Of a DNA stretch of 64,000 nucleotides, positions 55,434 through 56,665 are shown one piece after another (position 1 is the stretch's first letter; every line of letters starts with the position of its first letter). Made by a program: the position numbers and the translations under genes. The notes under the pieces are model-generated. The model was not told the origin of the DNA and did not search any database. It was given only the letters and a program-made list of their open reading frames with translations. The DNA comes from Halorubrum cibi. GTDB taxonomy: Archaea > Halobacteriota > Halobacteria > Halobacteriales > Haloferacaceae. Where the stretch lies: contig NZ_FXTD01000001.1 in NCBI RefSeq assembly GCF_900182635.1, positions 372,001-436,000 of the forward strand. Direction: 5' to 3'.

Positions 55434-55669
55434 GCGGTGGCGCGTGCCTGCGAGGCCGCTTCGCGGCCGAGCAGCACCGCGCGAGGGACGCGGCGAGCGG
55501 AGCGAGCCGAGAGGCTGGGGAGGCGTGAGGCGCGGGGCTGTGCGGGCGGGGCGGGACTCAAAGGGGCAGTCACGAGGGCGAAGCACACCGACGCAAGGAC
55601 CACAGGAGCGAGCAACGCGAGCGACGAGAACCGCAGCGAGGTGCGCGAGCCCTCGTGACTGGGGCTTTG
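55434..55669 (+). repeat. Structured GC-rich repeat, copy A
   Basis: The first member of an inverted pair. It starts with GCGGTGGCGCGTGCCTGCGA and includes a hairpin GGCCGC-TTC-GCGGCC (55454-55468). A block GAGGCTGGGGAGG...GGGACTCAAAGGGGCAG follows, then a long stem closed by CAAAG (55559-55563) and CTTTG (55665-55669). Within that stem CAGTCACGAGGGC (55567-55579) pairs exactly with GCCCTCGTGACTG (55649-55661), separated from the closing pairs by GGG on both sides. A minus-to-plus comparison shows the same order of parts in copy B. It lies in the 462-bp gap between the FAD oxidoreductase and PTPS genes. Confidence 0.88.
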
Positions 55670-55801
55670 GAGATGTTCGTCGCGATCGCGTCCCTCGATC
55701 AGTACGACGGAGCCATGAGAGTCCCTTCAAGACGGTGTATACTCGAATCATCTCCGTATGAGCGGGGACACGCTTTTGATCGCTCGGTCCGTGGTGATCC
55801 C

Positions 55802-56185
55802 GTGTACTCGGTTCGCGTCTCCCGGCGGTTCATCGCCCAGCACTTCCTGACCGTGCCGGACGCCGGCCCGGAGAACGAACTCCACTCCCACCGCTTCGAG
55901 GTCGACGTGGAGGTGGCCGGTCCGGAGCTGAACGAGCACGACTACCTCGTCGACATCGACGACCTCGCCGGGCGGATCGACGCGCTCGTCGACGAGTACG
56001 CCGACGCGACGCTCAACGACCGCCCGCGGTTTGAGGGGAACAACCCGAGCGTCGAGCGGTTCGCCCGCGTCTTCTGTGACCGCCTGCTCGAGGGGATCGA
56101 GACCGAGGGGATCGAGACGGCGACCGTCACGATGTGGGAGGACGAAACCGCGGCCGCGAGTTACGAGACGGTAGTCGGGGAGTAG
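55802..56185 (+). CDS. 6-pyruvoyl-tetrahydropterin synthase family protein (PTPS-III-like)
   Basis: A 127-aa T-fold enzyme from a GTG start (VYSVRVSRRFIAQHFLTVPD). Zinc histidines are His14, His28 and His30 (ELHSHRF). The residue in the usual catalytic Cys position is Glu24 (ENELHSH), the PTPS-III signature, whose members make 6-hydroxymethyl-dihydropterin and can replace FolB in folate synthesis. DYLVDIDDLAGRIDALVDEYADATLND and NPSVERFARVF are typical. It stands between two inverted repeat copies. An archaeosine QueD role is possible but less likely given the Glu. Confidence 0.85.
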   Translation: MYSVRVSRRFIAQHFLTVPDAGPENELHSHRFEVDVEVAGPELNEHDYLVDIDDLAGRIDALVDEYADATLNDRPRFEGNNPSVERFARVFCDRLLEGIETEGIETATVTMWEDETAAASYETVVGE

Positions 56186-56250
56186 ATCGGTCGATACGAG
56201 ATCGGTCGATACGGAATACTCGGTGGTGCGTAGTTGCTGGCGCGTGAACA

Positions 56251-56320
56251 TCATCAAAGCCCCAGCCGCTCGGCTGTACTGATCAACGAATACGACCGCA
56301 GAGAAGACTACCAAAGCCCC
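56251..56320 (-). repeat. Solo terminal fragment of the repeat family
   Basis: Next to copy B on the plus strand, ATCAAAGCCCCAGCCG is followed by CT and CGGCTG, giving a 6-bp hairpin. It repeats the copy B end (CCAAAGCCCCAGCC at 56311-56324) about 58 nt away. After it, in element orientation, comes GATGTTC, which also follows copy A (55672-55678). It looks like a terminal remnant or a nested insertion site. Confidence 0.6.
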
Positions 56321-56665
56321 AGCCACGAGGAGGCCGTACGCTCGCTGTCGTTCGAGACGGCGAAGCCGTCTCGTGATGACGAGAGAGCTCCGCTCTCTCG
56401 AACCACGCTCCTCACTCGGTCGCTCACTTCGTTCGCTTCCTCGTTGCGGTGCTTGCGTCACCTACGGCCTCCTCGTGGCTGCCCCTTTGAGTCCCACCCC
56501 GCCCAGCACCGCCCCACCCAGCACCTCACACCTCCCCAGCCTCGTCGCCGGACTACGTCCGGCTGCCAGAGGCGCGGAGCGCCTCGCTGCGGCTCCTTCC
56601 AGTCGCCGCGTCCCTCGCGCAGTGCTGCTCGGCCGCGAAGCGGCCTCGCAGGCACGCGCCACCGC
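56312..56665 (-). repeat. Structured GC-rich repeat, copy B (inverted)
   Basis: Minus-strand copy of the element at 55434-55669. The first 70 bp of the element (56596-56665) are nearly identical to copy A. Copy B has extra hairpins where copy A is short: GAGGCGC-GGA-GCGCCTC (56570-56586) and GCCGGAC-TAC-GTCCGGC (56548-56564). The main stem pairs 56320-56338 with 56463-56481 over 19 perfect base pairs, flanked by GGG/GGG and closed by CAAAG/CTTTG. Its loop carries two more 9-bp hairpins with 3-nt loops (56353-56373 and 56380-56400). It fills the 532-bp gap between the PTPS gene and the MDR dehydrogenase. Confidence 0.88.

Follow-up and report, generated by a model that had tools for sequence, protein, structure and literature searches.

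In integrons, the attC site is a hairpin formed by a folded single strand; its stem varies, and its two boxes are separated by a central spacer that stays unpaired. In bacteria, TnpA-REP binds one strand of the REP sequences and needs a conserved mismatch and a 5′ motif, and the REPs occur in inverted pairs (PMC8266576, PMC3116915). Among the small repeats of haloarchaea, SMR-A of Haloquadratum walsbyi is about 110 bp long and produces no target duplication; its copies, which are commonly more than 95% alike, have PATEs and IS605-type elements as their targets, the PATEs being tied to IS605 ends (PMC3119063). The hairpins considered here share with PATEs and SMRs a small size, the absence of a transposase and the presence of palindromes or inverted repeats; compared on the basis of the published descriptions, however, their copies differ widely from one another (PMC3119063).

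The window, i.e., the whole 64-kb stretch of DNA that was analyzed, contains two hairpins, copy A on the plus strand and copy B on the minus strand, with a common frame of a 5-bp outer helix (CAAAG/CTTTG) and a GGG/GGG internal loop. In the main hairpin of copy A (55559–55669, +), the 5′ arm CAAAG-GGG-CAGTCACGAGGGC (55559–55579) is paired with the 3′ arm GCCCTCGTGACTG-GGG-CTTTG (55649–55669), the inner stem has 13 bp and the apical region carries GA-type mismatches. The main hairpin of copy B (56312–56489, −) has an inner stem of 19 bp and a longer apical region, and exceeds that of copy A by 67 nt. This stem form had been reported in the preliminary description, together with a T-A step of copy A that is C-G in copy B and the retention of GGG/GGG in both copies, and all of these details were found again. 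Scanning the window for an outer helix of 5 bp, a 3 × 3 mismatch and an inner stem of at least 11 bp gave two matches, namely copies A and B, and the same anatomy did not occur in any of 40 shuffles of the window.

The element is larger than had been described, since further hairpins lie at approximately 55434–55547 and 56490–56665; these are smaller and form a module 5′ of each main hairpin. The upstream module of copy A (55434–55547, +) consists of two small hairpins with tandem GA/GA mismatches followed by GAGGCTGGGGAGGCGTGAGG and a G-rich linker, and contains a 76-nt inverted match to the module of copy B, which together with the 5′ foot of that copy occupies positions 56490–56665 (−). The folds of the upstream module and the covariation of the foot were examined in 32 copies. 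The 5′ foot of copy A (55548–55558, +) has the consensus GGGYGGGAYT, which was found across genera with a per-position conservation of mostly 79–98%, and a 3′ foot of the GGnGGTGTTC type (55670–55690, +) is kept downstream of the hairpin in the copies. An extra short tandem unit GATCAGTACAGCCGAGCGGCTGGGGCTTTG was located 3′ of copy B (56255–56284, −) and is present after other copies too. The two copies face each other, and between them, outside the element, lies a PTPS-family gene (55802–56185, +; PF01242, 91.1 bits).

Both hairpins are members of a large, dispersed family of non-coding intergenic hairpin repeats, which is apparently undescribed. At least about 50 copies were listed in the window's genome (3.18 Mb), and in two congeneric relatives the counts were 129 and at least 150. 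A covariance model derived from 40 copies matched copy A at 55548–55677 (131.7 bits) and copy B at 56304–56500 (79.9 bits), and gave matches in 165 of the 243 genomes and 59 of the 78 genera of the order, with 112, 71, 37 and 33 copies in some of the other genera. In a phylum-wide sample of 148 genomes, the matches were confined to the haloarchaeal order and none was obtained in the other orders sampled. The motif GGGYGGGAMTGAAAGGGGC was also sought in one genome per species for 84,980 species, and the matches listed came from haloarchaea only, e.g., Haloarcula, Haladaptatus, Natrinema, Halorussus, Halosimplex, Halobaculum and Natronococcus. No family match was found in phage and viral collections, while plasmids gave a few, mostly without annotated features beneath them. 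A search of the open literature by sequence motif and by topic did not reveal a description of the hairpin family.

Selection on a folded form, as had been proposed for the two copies, is well supported in the family. In an alignment of 40 copies, 98.5% of the stem cells were paired and changes on both sides were found in 23 of the 30 pairs; none of 500 shuffles gave pairing as good, and no slid register came close. Because the structure had been derived from this alignment, it was retested on 155 distinct copies that were picked by conserved motifs alone, with no pairing criterion. At ten stem positions, pairing in these copies was Watson–Crick in 90% of cases, against 21–25% when the arms were slid by one or two bases; stem-breaking changes, which the preliminary description had considered as evidence against a selected fold if they were as common as stem-keeping ones, were not that common. 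Note that paralogous copies are related, which makes the p-values optimistic. Folding z-scores reached −6.6. The outer 5-bp helix, although identical in copies A and B, covaries between genera (GAAAG/CTTTC, 120; CAAAG/CTTTG, 68; GGAAG/CTTCC, 11; CGAAG/CTTCG, 5). Among 248 candidates selected by loose criteria, 210 had the GGG/GGG loop, a count that includes some false matches and leans towards GGG, since one mismatch was allowed per anchor. The conserved parts are the 5′ foot, the outer helix with its adjoining GGG/GGG loop and, in the apical region, the motif CGACGYAAGCACCG...GAGGAGCGCAGCGAG, whereas the sequence of the stem is nearly free and differs in almost every copy with pairing kept.

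Genes are avoided by the copies, since among 207 of them 3 share more than 20 nt with a called gene. Among those examined, no consistent orientation to neighbouring genes was found; in the window's genus there is a weak excess of copies in convergent gaps. When orientation relative to replication was judged by eye in two relatives, no obvious trend was seen. Close pairs of copies in other genera were mostly arranged head-to-head (26 of 29), with a centre of mostly 38–48 bp, the left half having the layout AACAnCnn-GAAAGCCC...CCCTTTC-AGTCCCACCC-N and the right half, after N, the layout GGGTGGGACT-GAAAGGG...GGGCTTTC-nnGnTGTT. With regard to the terminal inverted repeats and target duplications of MITEs, these dyads end in AACA..TGTT and no target duplication was seen. 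The window's own genus gave no head-to-head pair, and the multi-hairpin module precedes the hairpin there; at loci L212 and L213 a similar module lies between two hairpins. The pair centres have a GC content of 61% and contain no A/T run of six, which makes divergent promoters within them unlikely.

The mismatches of the stem indicate which strand folds. Upkeep of a cruciform or of a mere palindrome predicts equal numbers of G.T and A.C mismatches, but on the GGG strand the mismatched cells of the inner stem comprised 80 G.T and 25 A.C (p = 7e-8), and 58 and 19 in the other genera alone (p = 1e-5), although these counts are not fully independent. In addition, the GGG/GGG and tandem GA/GA mismatches are purine–purine on the GGG strand and C/C or T/C on its complement. 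Both characteristics allow us to conclude that the functional fold is very likely that of one single strand, namely the GGG strand. An intramolecular G-quadruplex built from GGGYGGG and the GGG/GGG loop would be a further conceivable structure. The folded strand could be a structured non-coding RNA, in which case the GGG strand would be transcribed and the transcript, with three hairpins and tandem GA in the window's genus, would bind a protein or regulate genes. A one-strand fold with an excess of G.U, the low folding z-scores and the tandem GA/GA mismatches are consistent with it; tandem GA/GA is a known stable internal loop of RNA. However, a similar excess of G.T is expected from single-stranded DNA, the copies have no preferred orientation relative to genes, the GC-rich pair centres leave no evident TATA promoter between the hairpins, and an Rfam scan of the locus gave nothing near a gathering score. 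An RNA role is regarded as the main alternative, possible but rather doubtful, and the folded GGG strand more likely acts as single-stranded DNA than as a transcript.

A comparison of matching loci in close relatives revealed that hairpin modules have been swapped and that corresponding copies at the PTPS locus are different in both arms of their stems. The main hairpin is precisely absent at L078 (1970–2090) and at L236 (near 1179). Both loci have retained the GGGGCTTTG foot as well as the upstream module. Empty sites were also found at L080 and, relative to L007, at L261 and L254, with much diverged flanks. In the ortholog at L248, the left GGG is replaced by CCC, giving a perfect palindrome arm. 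The swaps, the losses and the CCC/GGG case indicate that the stems are subject to arm-templated correction and to exchange between copies, and such correction, not two independent compensated mutations, probably accounts for some of the change in the stems. In the extreme form of this explanation, the palindromes would have no function and their perfection would be due solely to template switching at replication, by which one arm is corrected from the other; with this, the L248 ortholog and the double-sided differences at the PTPS locus agree. Correction alone would nevertheless erase the GGG/GGG and GA mismatches, yet both persist across genera, and it predicts G.T and A.C in equal numbers; we consider it very improbable as the whole explanation. 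Selection has to account for the excess of G.T and for the persistence of GGG/GGG and of the GA mismatches. None of the sites examined showed a clean insertion that had exact ends or a target duplication, and querying the window's genome with joined left and right flanks did not reveal an empty element without its core. Most of the examined sites are common to close relatives, which points to slow mobility.

Recognition by an IS200/IS605 TnpA, suggested in the preliminary description, did not gain support. The Y1_Tnp domain (PF01797) was found neither in the window's genome nor in 15 other high-copy genomes, the E. coli control of this search being positive. Haloarchaea have many IS605-type elements and PATEs bearing near-terminal palindromes (PMC3119063), and Y1_Tnp is present in 151 of the 243 genomes of the order; both would agree with a non-autonomous, PATE-like IS200/IS605 derivative moved by a Y1 TnpA. 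But across these 243 genomes Y1_Tnp was not associated with the hairpin family (Fisher p = 0.16 and 0.84), no family match lay in the neighbourhoods of four sampled Y1_Tnp genes, and the paired hairpins are inverted, whereas IS200/IS605 ends carry hairpins on the same strand. Such an origin is judged very improbable. All-against-all clustering of the proteins near 151 copies in the named genomes revealed no shared protein family, the largest cluster covering 4 of 106 loci.

With REP/BIME/REPIN sequences, the nearest model among the known systems, the hairpins share an intergenic location, a high copy number, an imperfect palindrome whose internal mismatch is conserved, a conserved 5′ motif, a strand-specific fold and inverted pairs with a short centre (PMC8266576, PMC3116915); the inverted pairs were observed outside the window's genus (26 of the 29 close pairs) and not within it. 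They differ in length (about 110 nt against 20–50 nt for REP), in the foot (GGGYGGGAYT against the GTAG/CGTC type), in the almost free stem sequence and in conservation over a whole archaeal order. REPs also have an associated RAYT (Y1) transposase, while none was found in the window's genome and the 15 other high-copy genomes. The family was not classed with REP or with IS200/IS605, because some of the defining features of these groups were looked for and not found. With attC, the hairpin shares a folded single strand, an unpaired central part and a variable stem, as far as the general anatomy of attC is concerned; the attC boxes differ in sequence from CAAAG/GAAAG, and no protein family is linked to the hairpin copies (151 copies in the named genomes).

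The REP-like anatomy, combined with the lack of Y1_Tnp in the window's genome and 15 other high-copy genomes and of a protein family shared near the 151 clustered copies, led us to propose a trans-acting factor. Such a factor, encoded elsewhere, would bind the folded single GGG strand and would read the 5′ foot and the GGG/GGG mismatch; through it and through recombination between copies, the copies may persist, spread and swap hairpin modules, while the stem arms would co-evolve by selection for folding together with arm-templated correction. We give about an even chance to the general reading that these dispersed, non-coding and strand-specific hairpin repeats form a family extending over the whole order and work like bacterial REP/BIME/REPIN, more likely as single-stranded DNA than as a transcript. 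The more specific assumption of an undescribed haloarchaeal counterpart of REPIN, order-wide and with its own non-Y1 recognition factor that would read GGG/GGG in a nearly free stem of single-stranded DNA or RNA, is held somewhat more tentatively. The family reaches 150 or more copies in a genome, occurs in most genera of the order and covaries very strongly, yet it is apparently unannotated. It can serve as a test system for the upkeep of a folded strand in DNA, in which the retained GGG/GGG loop and the imbalance of G.T and A.C separate selection from arm-templated correction, and it points to a putative hairpin-reading factor in haloarchaea.

Several minor features were observed around individual copies. 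In the forward copy at L175, the apical part stands in inverted orientation within the stem of this copy, as though recombination across the palindrome had turned it around. A tandem unit of 51–57 bp (CAGTACAGCCGAGCGGCTGGGGCTTTGGnGGTGTTCACCGC..CAGCAAC) is located downstream of several copies (window 56255–56284; L010, L013, L028, L031 and L079), and in the window's genus a module CCACCTTTTTCrTCGTCGGGT...CCTGGAGGGAAAAAGCCGACTCC often lies 5′ of the element (left flanks of L014, L017, L024, L032 and L041). In addition, locus L091 of genome G029, which belongs to a different family, contains at 1882–2105 a copy between the same pair of PTPS and dehydrogenase genes as copy B; its stem differs from that of copy B, and this may be a shared position or a coincidence.
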